A stretch of 20,567 bases of DNA, from the IMG/VR virus record IMGVR_UViG_3300035701_001451, positions 1 through 20,567 of that record, one strand, 5' to 3'. The position numbers and the translations under genes were made by a program. Position 1 is the first letter of the stretch, and the number at the start of each line of letters is the position of its first letter. Shown here piece by piece: positions 5,363 to 16,710 of this stretch. Source of the stretch: a virus. The notes beneath the pieces were generated by a model. It saw nothing but the letters and a program-made list of their open reading frames with translations. It did no database searches and was not told where the DNA came from.

Positions 5363-5449
5363 ATGAGTCATCCTTGGATGTTTGATAGGGTGACGAGAAA
5401 AACACTAATGCCCTACTTAATCAAAGAGGACACTAATGTCAACGCTTAA
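5363..5449 (+). CDS. Possible 28-residue peptide, doubtful
   Basis: An open frame of 28 codons (starting MSHPWMFDRVTRK) would fill the 83-base gap between the zinc-ribbon gene and the Sak4 gene and overlaps the Sak4 start by 14 bases. The gap is long for this operon, which is the only support. There is no SD before the ATG, and the frame includes the SD of the next gene. It may equally be a short untranslated leader. Confidence 0.3.
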   Translation: MSHPWMFDRVTRKTLMPYLIKEDTNVNA

Positions 5450-6281
5450 TGATGTCAACGTAGAAGTTCTATTCTCCATGTTTAAGGGAGAGCCGGGACT
5501 TCGCAAATCTACTGCTGCTCTGTCATATCCAACACCACAGTTCTGGATTTCGACAGACCAAAAGATGGAAGCCCTAGTATTACCTGCAAAGCGTTGGGGT
5601 ATTTCATTAAAGGACATTAACTTTGAGGACTATACTGATTGGGATAAGCCTCGCAACCAATTAGAGAAGATGCAAGTTAACTGTCCATACAAGACTATCA
5701 TAGTCGATTCAATTACATCAATTGGTGATGTTATGACTCGGCAAGTTCGCAAATCAAAACAACAGGATAATACAGGTAAGAAGATAGGCGGTATACCTGT
5801 ATCTGGTTTTGAGGAATTTAATGCTGAGTCTGCTGCATTTCAGGAGATGATTGCATTACTAAAAGATATTCACAAATTTCATCATGTGAATATAATCCTA
5901 ATCGCTCATATCCTTGGCGCACGTAAGGATAATGATGCAAATAAGCTCACACATCACTCGCGCATCATCGTAACTGGTGCGGAGAAAATCTCAGCTAAGA
6001 TTGCTGCTTATATGACTGAGGTATACCACTTCAACATTAAGCCAGCATTCGAGGCTGACAAGGAGGGGCAGTATGGATTGATGACGGTGCATACAGGTAA
6101 TGATTACGCTAGAACATCATTACCCTTACCTCAAGAGATTGTATTCAATGATAAGCCGTTATATGAGAAGTTCATATCACCGGCTATCGAGAAACTAAAG
6201 GCTGAAAAGCCAATAGAGAGAATTCAATCTCCACCAACAACACTCGTAACATCCACAACATCATTCACACCAACAAAGTAG
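5436..6281 (+). CDS. Sak4-type RecA-like ATPase (recombination)
   Basis: 281 residues. Walker A is GEPGLRKST at residues 18-26; the usual Gly before the Lys is replaced by Arg, which I recall as a variant in phage ATPases of this type. Walker B is TIIVD ending at D91, followed by SITSIGD. A later strand (NIILIAHI) fits the core of a RecA fold. The C-terminal tail (residues 255-281) is Thr/Pro-rich and probably disordered. Sak4 proteins are short RecA relatives that bind single-stranded DNA and promote annealing together with an SSB, and the next gene looks like that SSB. AGAGGA at 5425-5430 supports the ATG at 5436. A stand-alone DnaB- or RadA-like ATPase is the main alternative. Confidence 0.82.
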   Translation: MSTLNDVNVEVLFSMFKGEPGLRKSTAALSYPTPQFWISTDQKMEALVLPAKRWGISLKDINFEDYTDWDKPRNQLEKMQVNCPYKTIIVDSITSIGDVMTRQVRKSKQQDNTGKKIGGIPVSGFEEFNAESAAFQEMIALLKDIHKFHHVNIILIAHILGARKDNDANKLTHHSRIIVTGAEKISAKIAAYMTEVYHFNIKPAFEADKEGQYGLMTVHTGNDYARTSLPLPQEIVFNDKPLYEKFISPAIEKLKAEKPIERIQSPPTTLVTSTTSFTPTK

Positions 6282-6292
6282 GAGTGCAGACA

Positions 6293-6712
6293 ATGCCAGT
6301 TATTACATTCAGTGACCGAGACTTGATGCGCGGTAAGATTATCACCCCCGCGTGGTATCGAGTCAAGATTGATGCTATTGGTGAAGCCCCCGCGAAACAG
6401 TCTGAGAAGGGGCCATCTACTAACTATCCCGTTGAGGCTACTATTCTGTTCAACGGTGATAATGGTGACACTGAGTTTGCAGGAGTTCCGTTGGATTGGA
6501 ATTTTAACTCAAAAGCCATTGGCTTTGCAGTTGGATTCCTCCAGTCTTTCGGCGTAGATGTCAAGTCGGGAACTCGTTTTGATTTGAAGTCTGCCGAAGG
6601 TAGGGAAGTTGATGTGTTTGTCGAAAACGATACTTACCAGAACCGTCTGGTAAATCGTTGCAACCACAAGTATCGTCCTGCTAAGGCAGATGTTACTGCT
6701 GTAGCTAAGTAG
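6293..6712 (+). CDS. Predicted phage single-stranded DNA-binding protein
   Basis: 139 residues if started at the ATG at 6293, which has GGAG eight bases upstream; the frame also reaches a GTG at 6284, but that overlaps the SD. The product has alternating strands and turns suited to an OB-fold: an early AWYRVKIDAIGEAP segment, a STNYPVEATILF strand, and WNFNSKAIGFAVGFL with aromatic residues that could stack on bases. Similar small proteins follow Sak4-like ATPases in other phages. Function is inferred from fold pattern and neighbourhood rather than a diagnostic motif. It ends with TAG; a folded non-coding segment follows. Confidence 0.65.
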   Translation: MPVITFSDRDLMRGKIITPAWYRVKIDAIGEAPAKQSEKGPSTNYPVEATILFNGDNGDTEFAGVPLDWNFNSKAIGFAVGFLQSFGVDVKSGTRFDLKSAEGREVDVFVENDTYQNRLVNRCNHKYRPAKADVTAVAK

Positions 6713-7042: not shown

Positions 7043-7183
7043 ATGGACGAATCACCGAAGGTCGAAGAAGTAGTGGACATGGATGAATATTCTAAGTCTG
7101 ATGAGACTTTGGATGAATCTGAAATCGAAGAAGATGATGATGATGAGCCGGAACTAGATGAAATTCCGGAACCAAGAGTGTAA
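7043..7183 (+). CDS. Highly acidic 46-residue protein
   Basis: GGAG at 7032-7035 lies seven bases before the ATG at 7043, and the frame ends with TAA at 7181-7183. The product is about 45% Asp plus Glu, with a run EIEEDDDDEPELDE, three Lys and one Arg. It is probably disordered and strongly negative. Small acidic phage proteins can mimic DNA and inhibit restriction, nucleoid or repair proteins, but this is speculation from charge alone. It lies directly upstream of the folded RNA at 7191-7376. The opposite strand carries a longer open frame rich in Ser, which is a by-product of the Asp/Glu codons here. Confidence 0.65.
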   Translation: MDESPKVEEVVDMDEYSKSDETLDESEIEEDDDDEPELDEIPEPRV

Positions 7184-7190
7184 TTGAAAC

Positions 7191-7376
7191 TCATTAGAAT
7201 AACTGGAAAAGTATCTTCATTCACTTATCTGGGGCGATAAGAGCTAAACCCACTTTAGCGAGAATGATTAGCCCAGAGAGGCCATAAAGTTATTCTGATG
7301 ATAGGGAGTCCATTCGACTTAGTTCCTTGGATTAAAACCAAGAACCGTATATACAGAATGGACTCCCGCCCTTTTT
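7191..7376 (+). ncRNA. Candidate structured RNA: three-way junction plus long hairpin and U-tract
   Basis: The 204-base gap 7184-7387 has no believable gene but folds strongly. P1 pairs 7191-7204 with 7288-7301 (14 pairs, one G-U). Inside it, P2 pairs TCATTC (7217-7222) with GAATGA (7262-7267). P2 encloses two hairpins separated by one base: P3, CTTATC/GATAAG (7224-7229/7236-7241, loop TGGGGC), and P4, GCTAAA/TTTAGC (7243-7248/7254-7259, loop CCCAC). The loops can kiss through TGGG and CCCA. A second domain follows after two bases: 7304-7315 pairs perfectly with 7356-7367 (12 pairs) and carries an inner 8-pair stem with one bulged C. It ends GCCCTTTTT at 7368-7376. This could be a phage small RNA with its own terminator or a long leader for the gene at 7388. 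It matches no family I know. Confidence 0.7.
7304..7376 (+). terminator. Long hairpin followed by a short T-run, possible intrinsic terminator
   Basis: The perfect 12-pair stem (GGGAGTCCATTC with its complement ending at 7367) is followed after GCCC by five T. The strong stem plus T-run fits an intrinsic terminator or attenuator, but the four-base spacer and the short T-run are imperfect, and the 40-base apical region with its own stem is larger than usual. It sits just before the SD (GGAG, 7377-7380) of the next gene, so it could reduce read-through into the downstream operon. Confidence 0.35.
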
Positions 7377-7387
7377 GGAGAATCATA

Positions 7388-7513
7388 ATGACTGATGAAC
7401 AATTCACTGAATTACTAAAAGTGTTACATTCTATTGATAGTGATTTAATTGTAATGATTGTAATTCTTGCCTGTATAGCAGGAACATTTCTTGTAAAGAA
7501 AATGGGAGATTGA
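7388..7513 (+). CDS. Small one-pass membrane protein, 41 residues
   Basis: The open frame extends upstream to an ATG at 7298, but that stretch lies inside the 12-pair hairpin. GGAG at 7377-7380 is spaced for the ATG at 7388, so the shorter form is chosen. Residues 1-19 are polar and acidic; residues 20-36 (LIVMIVILACIAGTFLV) are one strong transmembrane segment, followed by KKMGD. By the positive-inside rule the C-terminus probably faces the cytoplasm. It could be a holin-like or membrane-targeting protein, but early position and tiny size do not decide this. Confidence 0.65.
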   Translation: MTDEQFTELLKVLHSIDSDLIVMIVILACIAGTFLVKKMGD

Positions 7514-7716: not shown

Positions 7717-7977
7717 ATGTCAGATACAATTGAAGAAACTAGAGCACATGGCAAGATTATCAAAGTCTCTGAAAGTGGATGGGGCTTCATATCCTCAAAG
7801 GACATTAAGTTTACTCGTATCTTCTTTCATTGGACTTCTTTGAAACAAGATACACTTAAGTTTCAAGAATTAAAGAATGGAATGAAAGTTGAATTTACTC
7901 CAATTGAAGTTGAGGGTAAAGGGTTTAGGGCTATCAAAATTGAGGTTATTCCGAATGACCTTCAAACAGAAGTATGA
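7717..7977 (+). CDS. Cold-shock-domain-like nucleic-acid-binding protein
   Basis: 86 residues from the ATG at 7717, chosen over the ATG at 7705 because GAGG at 7706-7709 is correctly spaced. Residues 10-77 follow the cold-shock OB-fold pattern: HGKIIKVSESGWGFISS with GWGFIS at 21-26 corresponding to RNP1, RIFFHWTSL around 34-42 corresponding to RNP2, then LKNGMKVEF and a final KGFRAIKIEV strand. Cold-shock domains bind single-stranded RNA or DNA and can melt RNA structure. A phage version could act on mRNA folding or host transcription termination. It lies about 340 bases after the folded RNA, which is suggestive but not evidence of a link. Confidence 0.82.
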   Translation: MSDTIEETRAHGKIIKVSESGWGFISSKDIKFTRIFFHWTSLKQDTLKFQELKNGMKVEFTPIEVEGKGFRAIKIEVIPNDLQTEV

Positions 7978-8409: not shown

Positions 8410-8503
8410 AACTATTGGTGTTATTGCGTTTATAGTAATGCTTATTGGCGGAGCTATGATTGGTAGTATTGTTTATGATTTAACACATAAGAAAACAAAA
8501 TGA
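8402..8503 (+). CDS. Tiny one-pass membrane protein, 33 residues
   Basis: A short frame from the ATG at 8402 to the TGA at 8501-8503 links the two neighbouring genes with an eight-base overlap on the left and an ATGA overlap on the right. The sequence is dominated by a glycine-rich transmembrane helix at residues 5-24 (IGVIAFIVMLIGGAMIGSIV) followed by a polar, basic tail (THKKTK). No SD is visible, so coupling to the upstream gene is likely. Function unknown. It is accepted because the tight overlaps on both sides match the rest of the operon. Confidence 0.6.
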   Translation: MSETIGVIAFIVMLIGGAMIGSIVYDLTHKKTK

Positions 8504-11034
8504 GTGAACATAAATATGTCCCCGGAATGGGGTCCATAGGTGCGAAACTAATGATACTAGGGGACTGTCCAAGTCCTCAAGATACAGTTGCAGGTAGACC
8601 CTTTACAGGTTCATCTGGTAAGGAATTAGACCATCTTCTAGTAGATGCTGGAGTATCTCGTTCAAACTGTTGGATAACCAATGTATGTAAATATACAGTT
8701 CCACCTAACTTTCCTGGTAAGAAGATACCCTTCGCAATTCGAGCCAGAAATGCTGGAATAGATATGGAGGTTCAACTACATGAATTGCAAGAAGAAATTA
8801 ATAGTATTAAACCTAACTGTATCCTCGCTCTTAGTAGCACTTCTCTTTGGGCTTTATCCGGAAAAACAAAAATTGGAGACTATCGTGGTAGTATTATGCA
8901 CGGTATGGGGATTAAGTTTATACCCACTTATCATCCTGCCCATTTACTACATCAAACGCAAGGAGTAGAATTTAAGGGATATTGGAATCGACAAGTGATG
9001 GCATTCGATTTCAAACGTGCTTATGCTCAATCGAAGTTCTCCGAACTAATACTTCCAAGTAGAACATTAGAGATATGCCGAAATTCGGCCCAACTAGCTG
9101 AGTTTCGCGATAGATACAAGGATAAAATTCGTATGGCTGTAGATATTGAAGCCAACGGAACTTGTATCCCTGTATGTATCGGACTTTCATTAGTTAAACA
9201 TCATGGAATGACAGTTCCACTATGGAATTGTGATGGTATTAGTTCAATACCGGATTCTGATTTAGTTCAATGCTGGATTATTTTAAGTGAGATGCTATAT
9301 GAAAAAGAAATCGTTGGGCAGAATTTCAATTACGATAGAGATAAAATCAAAAGACTCGGATTCATTATCCGATATCTTGCCTCGGATACCATGCTCAAAG
9401 CTCATGCTATTAATCCCGAATTACCCAAAGGACTTGCGTTCAACACCAGTCTATATACCGAGGAACCTTTCTATAAGGATGAGGGCATGTATCATGGAAG
9501 CATTACGGATTTACTTACCGGATGTGCCCGTGATTCCTGCGTTACGCTCGAAGTAGATGAGAATATGGACCAAGACCTAGACGAATTAGGTATGCGTCCA
9601 TTCTATGAAAACTTCTTAATGAAACTACCTGAGGTTTACTGGAGTATTGAGAATCAGGGATTTAAAGTTGATACAAATGAACGTGATAGACTGTTAAGAA
9701 AATACGTTGAATGGGATGAAAGGGTTAGATATGAGTTATTTAAGCTTATTGGGGCAGAAGTTAATGTCAATTCTCCCACGCAAGTTGCTGTCTTACTTTG
9801 GGATAACCTCAAGTTACCTCGTAAGGACACCACTGGAGAAGAAGATATCACAGCCTTACTCAATAGTCCCTCTGCTATTAAAAAACCAGAACACCGGAAA
9901 ATATGTGAGCTTATACTCGAAGGTAGACGGGTTAGAAAGAGTATCTCTACATACCTCATGGCCCTCCCTGACTATGATGGAAGAATGCGAACTACCTACT
10001 TCCCCTGTTTGGATACTGGCAGAACGTCAACGGGACAACAAGACCCTCCAATTAGACCCCAAGTTGAAGTTATTGACGAGAATGGAAAGAAGAAAAATAA
10101 AGTATTAGGAACAGCTTTTCAGACCATGACTAAGCATGGTGATATTGGTCAGGATATTCGAGGAATGTATATCCCAGATAATGAAGATGAGATATTCGTT
10201 CAAGCTGATAGTTCACAAGCAGAAGCTAGAGTAGTAGCATTATTGGCTGATGATGAAGATACATTAAGGATGTATGATGAACACGACATACACGCTCTTA
10301 CTGCTTCTTGGTTTTTCGGTGGGGTTGAATCTGATTATTCTAAAAAGATACTTGGTTACGAGCATCCTATTAGATTCGCTGGCAAGACTCTTAGACATGC
10401 AGGACACCTTGGCGCGGGAAAGCGTAGGGCATCTATTGAACTCAACACTCAAGCACGAAAGTATAAGATACCTCTACAAATTTCGGAAGCGGTTGCAGAA
10501 CAAGCACTAAAGATATTCCACGCGAAATCACCTAAAGTTCAGGGAGTATTTCAAGCTGGAGTAATTGAGGCTCTCAAGAAGAATCGTCAGTTAATAGCAC
10601 CATTACCATATGGTATAGATGCACCTATAGGTGGTAAACGAACCTTCTATGAACGCTTTGGAGAAGAACTGTTTAGACAGGGATTCTCTTATATGCCTCA
10701 GAGGGCTGTATCGGATAACACCAAAGCAGCGGCCATACGAATACGTGCGAAGATACTTAACATTAAGATTGTAATGGAGTCACATGACTGTTTACTATTC
10801 TGTATACCTATTGTGAAGCAAGCTGAGTGGATTCCTATTATTAAGGAGGAAATGGAACGTCCTATCAATTTCTCACAATGCACATTACGCCGACATGAAT
10901 TAATCATTCCATGTGATATAGAAGTAGGAATGAATTACATGAACTTGAAGAAATTCAAATTTGAAGTTCCATTTACACCAAAACCCATCCCATCATTTAA
11001 ATCAATCACCGAACAATTCATGGTGAAAAAATGA
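8500..11034 (+). CDS. Family A DNA polymerase with N-terminal uracil-DNA-glycosylase-like domain
   Basis: 844 residues, three parts. Residues 10-170 resemble family 4 uracil-DNA glycosylases: GDCPSPQDTVAGRPFTGSSG at 21-40, WITNVCKY at 58-65 and YHPAHLL at 144-150. The usual GE at the start of motif 1 is GD here, so glycosylase activity is uncertain. Residues 205-355 are a 3'-5' exonuclease with D215/E217, N277-Y278-D279 and D345, all intact. The rest is the polymerase: TGRTSTG (506-512), motif A DSSQAEAR (570-577, catalytic D570), motif B R625...K629...G638, and motif C SHD (761-763). In the O-helix, the position of T7 Tyr526 (E. coli Phe762) is His633, and the T7 Tyr530 position is Leu637. 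This is the main replicative polymerase. UDG-polymerase fusions occur in some phages such as SPO1 relatives. It starts in an ATGA overlap. Confidence 0.93.
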   Translation: MSEHKYVPGMGSIGAKLMILGDCPSPQDTVAGRPFTGSSGKELDHLLVDAGVSRSNCWITNVCKYTVPPNFPGKKIPFAIRARNAGIDMEVQLHELQEEINSIKPNCILALSSTSLWALSGKTKIGDYRGSIMHGMGIKFIPTYHPAHLLHQTQGVEFKGYWNRQVMAFDFKRAYAQSKFSELILPSRTLEICRNSAQLAEFRDRYKDKIRMAVDIEANGTCIPVCIGLSLVKHHGMTVPLWNCDGISSIPDSDLVQCWIILSEMLYEKEIVGQNFNYDRDKIKRLGFIIRYLASDTMLKAHAINPELPKGLAFNTSLYTEEPFYKDEGMYHGSITDLLTGCARDSCVTLEVDENMDQDLDELGMRPFYENFLMKLPEVYWSIENQGFKVDTNERDRLLRKYVEWDERVRYELFKLIGAEVNVNSPTQVAVLLWDNLKLPRKDTTGEEDITALLNSPSAIKKPEHRKICELILEGRRVRKSISTYLMALPDYDGRMRTTYFPCLDTGRTSTGQQDPPIRPQVEVIDENGKKKNKVLGTAFQTMTKHGDIGQDIRGMYIPDNEDEIFVQADSSQAEARVVALLADDEDTLRMYDEHDIHALTASWFFGGVESDYSKKILGYEHPIRFAGKTLRHAGHLGAGKRRASIELNTQARKYKIPLQISEAVAEQALKIFHAKSPKVQGVFQAGVIEALKKNRQLIAPLPYGIDAPIGGKRTFYERFGEELFRQGFSYMPQRAVSDNTKAAAIRIRAKILNIKIVMESHDCLLFCIPIVKQAEWIPIIKEEMERPINFSQCTLRRHELIIPCDIEVGMNYMNLKKFKFEVPFTPKPIPSFKSITEQFMVKK

Positions 11035-12948: not shown

Positions 12949-15900
12949 TTATTTAACACCCCCATAAGTTTGAACACCCATTCCAAGTGCTGCTGGAATA
13001 GCGAGTGGTAGCAATTCAGGACTTTCTTTTGCAAGTTGATAAACATCTTGCATAAGAATAGGGATAAATCTTTGTGCAATTGCATTTTCCATTGGATTCA
13101 TAGTTTTAAAATTCATCTTCTGACCAGACATTTCTTTCTTACCTGTCAAAAGTGCCCAACCAAAGTTTATTACTGGATGAGTCTTACCACGTAGAAACCG
13201 CGTGGCAATTGTAGCAGGTGATGGGTCAAACGGACCAGGACGTTCATTCCACAAGTCATATTTTCTTCCACTAGTAGAACTAGATACTGTCTGTCCTCCC
13301 TTACCCATAAATCCAGTAGCAAGGTCCAATGGAACTGCACCAGTATCAGTTCCTTCTTCTAATCCTGGAACTCTAGCAAAGGTAGGTCTAATTAATCTAT
13401 TCGCAGCTACGACATACTGTTGAAATCCTGCCCAAGGGTCAAGTCGAGTATTTCCAATTTTAGCTTTTCCAAAGTCTGAATTATTAGGGTCAGTTTCTAC
13501 TTCTGCTCCTGCCATCTTAGCAAGTTGAAGAACTGAATTACCTACAGCAGTAATCGCAAATAAACTCTTTAAGGCTTCTTTACGAACCATTGGAGTAGCC
13601 ATAATATAATATGCAGGATTAAGTATCTTAACTCTAGATGCAATTAGTCTAGGTGCAAATAGTCCGGTATTCAATAGAACAGCAGAGGATTCCAAACTCA
13701 ATTCAGTTTTACCACCAAATAGTTTTTGAAATCTATCAGGAATATCTACTGATAATTTACCTCGTCCGGAAGCAGTATTAACGAAGTCTGCTAATGCACG
13801 AGCCAGGGGAAGATTTCCTTTAGTATTACTACCTAGAATATCTGCATTTTTAATTAGATTTTCAAATACATCTGCTCTAAGATTATTCAAGAATGCTGTA
13901 TAGGCTCTATTAGATGCTCTCACTACAGGCACCTTCTCAGCCCATGTAGACATAATAGCTTCTTCACGTTTACTTAGGTCAGTCAAATCAGTTAATTTCA
14001 AACCAGCGTCATCAGCAAATGATGGAAGTTTATTTCCTAAATCATCAAAACGCTTCTTAAATAGTGGTCTTTCTGCAATAGCAGCTTGACTAGCTTGAAA
14101 TCCTTCTTCTGAAGCCCATGATTTCATCATAGGATTTAAAGCAGTCCAAAATTCCTTTTTATGAATTAATGGCAATCCCTGTCTTAATGGAGCAGATAAG
14201 TCCCATGATGCCATGATACCGCGAGGAAGATTAAATACTTCCGCTACAATAGAAGATTTCTTAGCATCTTGAATTGCACCTAATTCACCCCTAGCACCCT
14301 GTTTAGTTGGACGTTGTTTACCTACTTCTTCTTCAAGAATAGGAGCCTTTGTAGTAGTTTCTGTCTTCTTAAATCTAAAATCTCCAGCTTCATTTTTACC
14401 TTCAAATCTAAATCCTGCATCAAATAGTTTCTTAACATTTCTCGGAATAGCTTGAGCACTTTTAACTACGACTATTTCTCCTATAGGAAAGTCATGAAGA
14501 AACTTTTCTGGTTTTCCCTGTCTAATGAGAACTTCGCCCTTTTCACCCTTAAACCGACTACCAAATCCTGTAGGTTTATCAGCTTCGGCTTGTTTCTTTC
14601 CTGCTAATTCAATAAACTTTAGAACCTTACCACGCCAAGTCTGACCTTCTTTTAATGGATTCTTTGCAGCCGTAGATAGAATACTTTGATACTCTATATC
14701 TGGAGCATTTGCAGCATCTAATTCAGCTACTCTTGCAGCCCAAGTTTCTGCGGCTGTTTTAGGCGTAATCTTAGTAGGTGTAACTGGTGTAACTGGAGTC
14801 TCAACTGTAGGAGTAGTAACCACAGGTTCAGGTGGAGAAGTAACTACATCCCACGCAGCTTTCATATCAGGAGGTAAATCAGGATGATTCTTAATACTCT
14901 CCAGTAATCCTCTATATGTAATAGCTTCTTGTTCAGTATACTGATTAATACCCTTCCTTCGACGCATAGCCCGCAAATCATTAACCATTCCATTAAGGTC
15001 AGCACTACCAGTCTCAGTGATAGGAATTCCTATGCTACTTGTTTTGACCTTCGCAGGTTTAGTCACTTTAGGAGCAGGTTCATTAACAAGTTCTGGTGGT
15101 GCCTCAAAGACTGGAGGAGCTTCTCTAAATACAAAATCTCCATTCTCAGTTAATGAATCATATTCAAATCCCTGAGCGCGAGCATTACGAATAAAGTCTG
15201 GAGTAACCTTCTCTTTAGGAACAACTGCTTTACCTGTTGAAACTTCTGGAGCTGCTGCTACGGGTGCCTCAATAGGTGCCTCAATAGGTTTAACAGGAAC
15301 AGGTCCAACCCCCGGTTGTTTAATTGGAAGTTCTGTAACTCCACCTATCTTACGAGCAGTTTGTATCTCACCATATTCTTTAGGTCCAATTACATCCTTA
15401 GCCTTATTCCAAATTACCCTAGTTAGATTAAAATTAACTCCAAGTTCTTTCTGCAATCCCGCCATATTCTTTACTTGACCACTTCGCATTAATTCCACTA
15501 CTTCTGGAATTCCAAGTTTAGGCACTTGAACTTTTGGTTCACTAGCCAATACAGATTCAGTGAATGGGGTTGATTTAACTGGAGTAGGTTCAATAGGTGG
15601 AGTAGATTCAATTACAGGTTTTGAAACAACAGGTTCAATAACTGGAGTATCAGTCATTTGAATTCCTGCCATTGAAACAGGGGCAGGAGGTTCAGTAGTT
15701 TTCTTAAATTTCCAGTCACCATTATCATCTAATCCCTGGAATTTATATCCCTGCTGTTTAGCCTTTTCAATAAATTCGGGATTAACTTGTTCCTTCCCAA
15801 ATACATATGTAGGTTCAATGACCTTACCAGTTTTAGTTTTAGCAACAGGAGGTTTAACTTGTTTAGCAGCAGCTTTCTGTTCAGCTTTATAAATCTTTTC

Positions 15901-16710
15901 CAGTAACTTTAATGCGTGTTCTTGATTTATTTTACCATCATTAAATGCAGTATGGACTTCTTCTGGGGTAGTGAGAAGTGCATCAATCGAAGTAAATACA
16001 GGTTTAGTCTCAATACCTTGTGGCTCGGTTTTCAGTGGCTCGATTACAGGCTTCGAGACAGCCGGGTTTACTGCGGGTCGAATCGGGAGTGAAAGTTGCT
16101 CCCCGGTCGATTTTGTAGCTTCTGGACCGTGTTCTATATCAAACCATGCTGATTCTGGAACTTCCGAAATAGTAGGTTTGACTGAAGGTTTGGTAATATT
16201 AAGTTTAACTTTCGGAACATGTCCACCCGGTCTTATTCCTGCAAGTCCACCTAATAGTTCTAATCCACCACCTATACCTTGTGCCCAATTACCCTCTGTA
16301 GCTCCACCATAAATATTTTCTGCACCTTCATAAGCTACAGGGAGAGATAGTCCTTGCCTACCATACTGTAATCCTTTAGCAATAGCAGGTAATCCATACT
16401 TCGCGGCTACTACTTCACCTGCACCTAATCCAGCAAATGCAAGATTTAATGGAGATGATAATCCAGATACCATATCAGCTAAGAAATTCGCACCCCCTCC
16501 AATGACAGGATGTTCCTTCGCGAATTCATCTGTAGCTTGCCTAATAGCAGGATTTCCACGAATATCTGCAATAGGCGTGGATATAGCAGCCCACCCTTTT
16601 CTAAGTAAACCGGGGTCACGTTCTTCAGTAGATTCATCTATAGTATCAGGAATGAATCTAGGGTCTCTTTTCGGCTTATCTGGAGTAAATCGTGAATCTT
16701 TTTGTGGCAT
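12949..16710 (-). CDS. Very large virion-type polyvalent protein with LPD38-like C-terminus, 1253 residues
   Basis: The N-terminal 170 residues include glycine-rich hydrophobic stretches (70-110 and 120-160) that could be membrane-active. Residues 170-800 are Pro/Val/Thr/Lys-rich linkers holding three copies of a 30-residue motif (about 309-337, 502-530, 755-782). Residues 820-1253 are a long helical region that starts EVFNLPRGIMASWDLSAPLR, a pattern typical of the LPD38 domain of large polyvalent proteins in phages. Polyvalent proteins are often injected with the DNA and carry several effector activities. The neighbouring GNAT and long coiled-coil genes fit an ejection-protein module like T7 gp14-16, although no transglycosylase motif is visible. 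GGTGAG precedes the ATG on the minus strand. Function is inference; the fold assignment is moderately supported. Confidence 0.78.
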   Translation of the reverse strand: MPQKDSRFTPDKPKRDPRFIPDTIDESTEERDPGLLRKGWAAISTPIADIRGNPAIRQATDEFAKEHPVIGGGANFLADMVSGLSSPLNLAFAGLGAGEVVAAKYGLPAIAKGLQYGRQGLSLPVAYEGAENIYGGATEGNWAQGIGGGLELLGGLAGIRPGGHVPKVKLNITKPSVKPTISEVPESAWFDIEHGPEATKSTGEQLSLPIRPAVNPAVSKPVIEPLKTEPQGIETKPVFTSIDALLTTPEEVHTAFNDGKINQEHALKLLEKIYKAEQKAAAKQVKPPVAKTKTGKVIEPTYVFGKEQVNPEFIEKAKQQGYKFQGLDDNGDWKFKKTTEPPAPVSMAGIQMTDTPVIEPVVSKPVIESTPPIEPTPVKSTPFTESVLASEPKVQVPKLGIPEVVELMRSGQVKNMAGLQKELGVNFNLTRVIWNKAKDVIGPKEYGEIQTARKIGGVTELPIKQPGVGPVPVKPIEAPIEAPVAAAPEVSTGKAVVPKEKVTPDFIRNARAQGFEYDSLTENGDFVFREAPPVFEAPPELVNEPAPKVTKPAKVKTSSIGIPITETGSADLNGMVNDLRAMRRRKGINQYTEQEAITYRGLLESIKNHPDLPPDMKAAWDVVTSPPEPVVTTPTVETPVTPVTPTKITPKTAAETWAARVAELDAANAPDIEYQSILSTAAKNPLKEGQTWRGKVLKFIELAGKKQAEADKPTGFGSRFKGEKGEVLIRQGKPEKFLHDFPIGEIVVVKSAQAIPRNVKKLFDAGFRFEGKNEAGDFRFKKTETTTKAPILEEEVGKQRPTKQGARGELGAIQDAKKSSIVAEVFNLPRGIMASWDLSAPLRQGLPLIHKKEFWTALNPMMKSWASEEGFQASQAAIAERPLFKKRFDDLGNKLPSFADDAGLKLTDLTDLSKREEAIMSTWAEKVPVVRASNRAYTAFLNNLRADVFENLIKNADILGSNTKGNLPLARALADFVNTASGRGKLSVDIPDRFQKLFGGKTELSLESSAVLLNTGLFAPRLIASRVKILNPAYYIMATPMVRKEALKSLFAITAVGNSVLQLAKMAGAEVETDPNNSDFGKAKIGNTRLDPWAGFQQYVVAANRLIRPTFARVPGLEEGTDTGAVPLDLATGFMGKGGQTVSSSTSGRKYDLWNERPGPFDPSPATIATRFLRGKTHPVINFGWALLTGKKEMSGQKMNFKTMNPMENAIAQRFIPILMQDVYQLAKESPELLPLAIPAALGMGVQTYGGVK
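14365..14448 (-). repeat. Internal protein repeat, copy 3
   Basis: Residues 755-782 of the 1253-residue protein: IPRNVKKLFDAGFRFEGK followed by NEAGDFRFKK. More diverged than copies 1 and 2 but keeps the helix ending in a Gly-Phe and the GDFRF hairpin. Confidence 0.55.
15121..15207 (-). repeat. Internal protein repeat, copy 2
   Basis: Residues 502-530 of the 1253-residue protein: TPDFIRNARAQGFEYDSL followed by TENGDFVFRE. Shares the helix and the NGDF hairpin with copies 1 and 3, separated by Pro-rich linkers. Confidence 0.6.
15700..15786 (-). repeat. Internal protein repeat, copy 1
   Basis: Residues 309-337 of the 1253-residue protein. The core is an alpha helix (PEFIEKAKQQGYKF) followed by GLDDNGDWKFKK. 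It matches copies 2 and 3 at the pattern F-x(n)-A-x-x-x-G-[FY]-x-[FY] followed by N-x-x-GDF/W-x-F. Confidence 0.6.

Follow-up and report, generated by a model that had tools for sequence, protein, structure and literature searches.

What does the structured stretch between two small genes in the replication block of this uncultured phage do, and is it selected as RNA? The virus record comprises 20,567 bases, all of which were analysed (the window). The element lies on the plus strand between a gene for an acidic 46-aa product and an ORF for a 41-aa membrane-type protein. The surrounding same-strand replication genes code for an SNF2 helicase, a nuclease-like protein (with only a weak PHROG exonuclease match), a Sak4-like ATPase, a 142-aa protein, a cold-shock-domain protein, a UDG-PolA polymerase and a primase-like DUF3987 protein. 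The features used below are the following, with P1 and P2 denoting the first and second hairpins.

5436-6281, plus strand: Sak4-like ATPase gene (AAA_24), upstream anchor
6284-6712, plus strand: conserved 142-aa gene, upstream anchor; no family match, SSB-like by position only
7043-7183, plus strand: ultra-acidic 46-aa gene; its stop codon is just 5' of P1
7187-7376, plus strand: whole RNA element, new family; model R1 and R2 matches at 7189-7376; z -4.88
7191-7204, plus strand: P1 5' strand, pairs with 7288-7301
7205-7287, plus strand: variable apical domain of P1, from the minimum-energy fold; not conserved in relatives
7288-7301, plus strand: P1 3' strand, pairs with 7191-7204
7302-7303, plus strand: UA linker between P1 and P2; 1-2 nt in the family, consensus GAUAGGGG
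7304-7315, plus strand: P2 5' strand with a GC clamp at its base, pairs with 7356-7367
7316-7355, plus strand: P2 internal loop and apical stem, from the minimum-energy fold
7356-7367, plus strand: P2 3' strand, pairs with 7304-7315
7368-7376, plus strand: conserved tail GCCCUUUUU, family form GCYUUUUA
7388-7513, plus strand: 41-aa small membrane-type ORF, first gene 3' of the RNA in the window
7717-7977, plus strand: cold-shock-domain gene (PF00313, E 3.8e-10), downstream anchor
8500-11034, plus strand: family A DNA polymerase with an N-terminal UDG domain (UDG, E 1.2e-18; DNA_pol_A, E 3.2e-26), downstream anchor

In the window copy, P1 comprises 14 pairs, one of them G-U, and P2 has 12 perfect pairs. 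Both helices, as well as a 6-pair helix within the P1 apical domain (7217-7222/7262-7267), lie exactly where an earlier sequence-only reading of this DNA had placed them. The minimum-energy fold also contains the two inner hairpins proposed for this domain (7224-7229/7236-7241, loop UGGGGC, and 7243-7248/7254-7259, loop CCCAC), together with a GCC/GGC mini-hairpin at 7271-7282 that had been missed. The P2 apical stem is formed by GUUC/GAAC (7322-7325/7342-7345) and UUGG/CCAA (7327-7330/7338-7341). The computed energy of 7187-7376 is -61.4 kcal/mol, compared with -39.9 +/- 4.4 for dinucleotide shuffles, none of which was as good (0/200). The expected free-energy excess is thus present, and in terms of fold energy so many nested pairs are indeed unlikely by chance. 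Helix length alone is less exceptional: in a scan of the 20 kb window for adjacent helix pairs, the element reaches 25 pairs but one other site reaches 27, the best in 20 whole-window shuffles being 18-23. Moreover, the minus strand of the element is also stable (z -4.49), so the strand cannot be read from energy alone. With a stable opposite strand and a moderately unusual helix length, one sequence alone is indecisive, and the decisive evidence for the observation is covariation in relatives.

Relatives were gathered via the neighbouring Sak4 and polymerase genes. A covariance model (R1) built from a MAFFT alignment of eight of them was run on 100 loci and gave 54 matches, every one of them on the coding strand. 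With a second model (R2), built on 43 distinct matches, we obtained 77 distinct members from uncultured phage contigs, reaching down to ~60% DNA-polymerase identity, and no minus-strand matches in the syntenic loci. R2 matched 26 of 30 long records (~44-49 kb), with a single match in nearly all; two long records gave an additional weak match, at E 0.01 and 0.08, and one of the two carries both of its matches at the contig ends. This constancy across genomes implies a function that these phages seldom lose. In the four long records that R2 did not match, the RNA has possibly been lost or has strongly diverged; in three of them, the gaps were scanned with a simple descriptor of two helices, which gave no match. 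R2 did not match the distant phages L206-L210, which have only 24-27% polymerase identity.

In viral contigs, the pattern GTGATAGGGG-N-CCCCGCCTTT retrieved nothing but family members; its five matches in bacterial genomes were treated as chance, and the best of them by R2 (L204, E 0.011) is devoid of the neighbouring genes. Ten weak R1 matches (E 0.02-0.12) in 22 loci drawn by DNA pattern were also ascribed to chance; R2, applied to two of these, gave E 0.29 for L153 and no match for L157. A search of 50,697 deposited phage records returned nothing for either neighbour protein, Sak4 or the 142-aa protein, and bacterial genomes likewise gave no match for Sak4.

A phage structured RNA outside the known families had been proposed, and the searches agree with this. 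Rfam 15 gave no match over the whole window, and only two chance-level snoRNA matches, far under threshold, for the element at E<=10. In six relatives, Rfam returned only a tRNA of L005, away from the element, and a match under threshold that overlaps this tRNA on the other strand. This tRNA gene (L005:652-725; 58.4 bits) belongs to the early block of a close relative, and a tRNA search of the window found none. The titles and abstracts returned from open PMC papers contain no description of this two-hairpin RNA family.

The covarying pairs anticipated in related phages were found. In the eight-sequence MAFFT alignment, made without structure, 16 of 38 consensus pairs have compensatory double changes. 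Over 30 modelled pairs in the 77 members, standard pairs make up 94.3% of cells, both sides have changed in 621 cells and the covariation score is 0.723 (0.217 when shuffled, at most 0.112 with slid partners); the fitting of this alignment to the structure biases the counts, but the slid controls give the same picture, as does the eight-sequence alignment, which was not fitted. Both-side changes occur at all 14 family P1 pairs. All 77 members beat their own dinucleotide shuffles (40 each), with a mean z of -6.5 and a weakest value of -3.1. The arms can vary widely in sequence, and pairing alone is kept. The maintenance of the helices by compensating mutations argues that the RNA is functional.

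The family also indicates the strand. The 24 inner pairs of P1 and P2 comprise 192 G-U and 6 A-C combinations, a strong asymmetry that identifies the plus-strand RNA as the selected molecule; the ratio would be reversed if the minus-strand RNA were selected. A coding explanation was rejected, as had been expected for this gap, because lengths vary from 101 to 228 nt over all three frames, with free indels. The element is thus a member of a conserved plus-strand two-hairpin structured RNA family in the replication gene block of an uncultured phage lineage. Sequence comparison indicates a new family of phage intergenic structured RNA, with a function that can be proposed from its context.

The conserved core consists of P1, the short linker, P2 with its GC clamp and internal loop, and GCYUUU. 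P1 has up to 14 pairs and an A-U rich base. Its apical part can be as small as a mini-loop (in L122, L108 and L136) or can exceed 100 nt and consist of other hairpins, and a GGANAAAUAYC motif and a GCC..GGCC mini-hairpin co-occur in only 20/77 members. Thus, the three-way junction that the sequence-only reading had taken as a defining feature is not conserved. The UGGG and CCCA loops are complementary in the window, as that reading had noted, but their kissing is not a family feature; a new phage structured RNA stands, whereas a conserved three-way junction with kissing loops does not. Packaging RNA of phi29 (Rfam Phage_pRNA) is likewise a phage RNA, and the window copy shares a junction-like fold with it; in contrast, the new family has no Rfam match, is located among replication genes and does not conserve the junction.

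P2 has 12-13 pairs, beginning with the GC clamp (G-C at the first four pairs in 75/77, 73/77, 62/77 and 57/77 members) and followed by the internal loop and the apical stem. The internal loop falls into two main classes, with 33/77 and 20/77 members, and contains conserved unpaired bases. In the tail, positions 4-6 are U in 58/77, 63/77 and 49/77 members. The T-run that had been pointed out is therefore real but short (consensus GCYUUUUA), and it begins 2-3 nt past the P2 stem. Pairing of the tail with the Shine-Dalgarno sequence or with a loop, checked by eye, is inconsistent across members.

The RNA is linked more tightly to its upstream than to its downstream neighbours. In the family, it is found 3' of the Sak4 ATPase gene, its 142-aa neighbour and usually the small ultra-acidic gene, and 5' of the cold-shock-domain (csp) gene. 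An acidic ORF, defined by at least 35% D/E over its last 40 residues, ends beside P1 in 68/77 members, with a median gap of 4 nt; in L104 and L143 this gene is absent and the 142-aa gene directly precedes the RNA. Downstream, the Shine-Dalgarno sequence of the 41-aa ORF (GGAG, 7377-7380) directly adjoins the RNA tail in the window, and different genes hold this slot in relatives. The csp gene is at most 100 nt from the RNA in 34/75 loci, with inserted genes intervening elsewhere. The distance ranges from 4 to 1572 nt, showing that extra genes enter 3' and not 5' of the RNA, a pattern that an mRNA 3' boundary would predict.

The acidic products are ~44-95 aa long across relatives, and a VDMDE motif recurs in those of the closer relatives. 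A PHROG search gave no match for this small family, whose product might be a DNA mimic or a leader. Two contigs break at this locus: L003, 98.9% identical, ends right before the element (near window position 7164) and L015 ends inside it. These assembly breaks may mark strain variation.

The RNA most likely controls the amount of the downstream replication genes made. We tentatively favour, with a probability of about 0.42, a role in cis, as an attenuator or as an mRNA 3'-end boundary, at the junction of the upstream genes with the csp-polymerase genes. Four features make this reading the most likely: the linkage to the stop codon, the restriction of insertions to the downstream side, the GC clamp and a short, conserved U-run. 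The location of the clamp at the base of P2 while that of P1 is A-U rich was also counted for it, and the single copy in nearly all genomes, at one position on the coding strand, for action in cis. The RNA would act within a polycistronic mRNA, as a boundary between the Sak4, 142-aa and acidic genes and the cold-shock, polymerase and primase genes. The GC clamp of P2 and the short U-run might cause partial RNA polymerase pausing or termination, and P2 might shield the upstream mRNA 3' end from exonucleases. P1, placed right after the acidic stop codon and against P2, could make the effect depend on the ribosome, RNA polymerase or a bound protein. One transcript would thereby yield much upstream protein and less polymerase.

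The similarity to intrinsic terminators and attenuators lies in a GC-rich stem base followed by a U-run. In contrast with terminators, the new family has a long stem with an internal loop, a spacer before the short U-run and an obligatory second hairpin. A terminator scan requiring at least 5 T in 8 did not call P2. The shortness and offset of the U-run speak against an attenuator, and a plain terminator or end-shield would not need the conserved unpaired bases of the P2 loop.

An unlikely alternative is an RNA-only processive antiterminator of the HK022 put or EAR type, in which the nascent two-hairpin RNA would bind RNA polymerase and allow read-through of terminators or pauses in the rest of the block. 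The put RNA of HK022 binds the beta' zinc-binding domain and suppresses termination. The idea is attractive because put RNA (putL and putR) also consists of two stem-loops with bulges, on one strand only, that bind RNA polymerase, its copies sitting near early promoters (PMC9378689). The new family similarly has two long adjacent hairpins separated by 1-2 nt, bulges in the second, strand specificity and one copy per genome. However, put is ~70 nt long, compared with 101-228 nt here, and has neither the variable first-hairpin domain nor the conserved GCYUUU tail. R2 run on the early region of HK022 (positions 22000-40700) gave a best E of 4.5, which is not significant. In six long genomes, the element lies ~9-12 kb inside the same-strand block and not near its start, although an internal promoter may lie closer to it. 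In addition, the downstream part of the block showed no strong hairpin ending in a canonical U-tract for such an RNA to suppress. It is unlikely that the family represents a second, unrelated class of phage RNA-only processive antiterminators, in which a two-hairpin nascent RNA, kept lineage-wide, would reprogram the RNA polymerase of the host across the distal half of this block.

Doubtful to a similar degree as a put-like function is a discrete trans-acting small RNA, either released from the 3' UTR of the operon or transcribed from a promoter within the acidic gene, and ending with P2 and the U-run. The compact structured unit of 101-228 nt, its U-rich tail and the strongly conserved fold would suit such an RNA. 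Nevertheless, the alignment has no long conserved single-stranded seed, and the promoter evidence consists of weak consensus matches only. An operon position that stays the same in deeply diverged phages is more readily explained by a cis element, and the tight linkage to the upstream stop codon together with this one position favours action in cis.

The proximity of the acidic stop codon to P1 could also point to a leader gated by the acidic peptide, in which ribosome destabilisation on the D/E-rich ORF would alter the occupancy of P1 and hence downstream expression. With a median gap of 4 nt in 68/77 members, a ribosome at the stop codon would cover the P1 5' strand. There is a precedent in Salmonella, where a small ORF of acidic codons (mgtQ) lies between mgtC and mgtB (PMC8092293); in both cases an acidic ORF is directly followed by an RNA structure and then by the next gene. 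However, the phage ORF is longer, and its conserved motif and length of ~44-95 aa suggest that it may simply encode a protein. It can also be absent, the RNA persisting in L104 and L143, and no alternative, switch-type pairing was noticed in the single consensus fold examined. We consider this explanation quite unlikely.

An RNase III processing site is improbable. Phage T7 has several early RNase III hairpins per genome, which are intergenic and have internal loops, and the new RNA similarly contains a long hairpin with an internal loop between genes of one same-strand block. In contrast with those of T7, it is a single two-hairpin element per genome, in a conserved context and with fine structure conserved in both hairpins. 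Finally, a DNA-level or replication element (an origin, a priming site or a single-stranded DNA hairpin) would fit the location among replication genes but is highly improbable, as the tolerance of G-U and not of A-C marks one strand, pairing alone is kept in arms of largely free sequence, and no GC skew switch is seen at the element in the six long genomes, which were treated as circular and rotated (G001 alone gave a terminal repeat). The asymmetry and the lack of a skew switch also led us to reject a minus-strand RNA as a leading idea.

For phage biology, these 77 distinct members at a fixed operon position add a well-supported and previously uncatalogued RNA family, and the covariance model is a ready means to find more of them.

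Other inverted repeats were observed in further phages. Strong GGGGAG...CTCCCC repeats are present in the late-gene block of L180 (near 14900-14970) and L183 (near 16090-16145), with an ATG within ~10 nt on their 3' side and no obvious Shine-Dalgarno sequence. L188 (4033-4072) and L190 (8825-8864) have, at corresponding sites close to where the early block starts, perfect-stem hairpins that share the apical sequence GGACTGCAAACC and differ in their stem sequences, possibly representing another conserved RNA or an operator.
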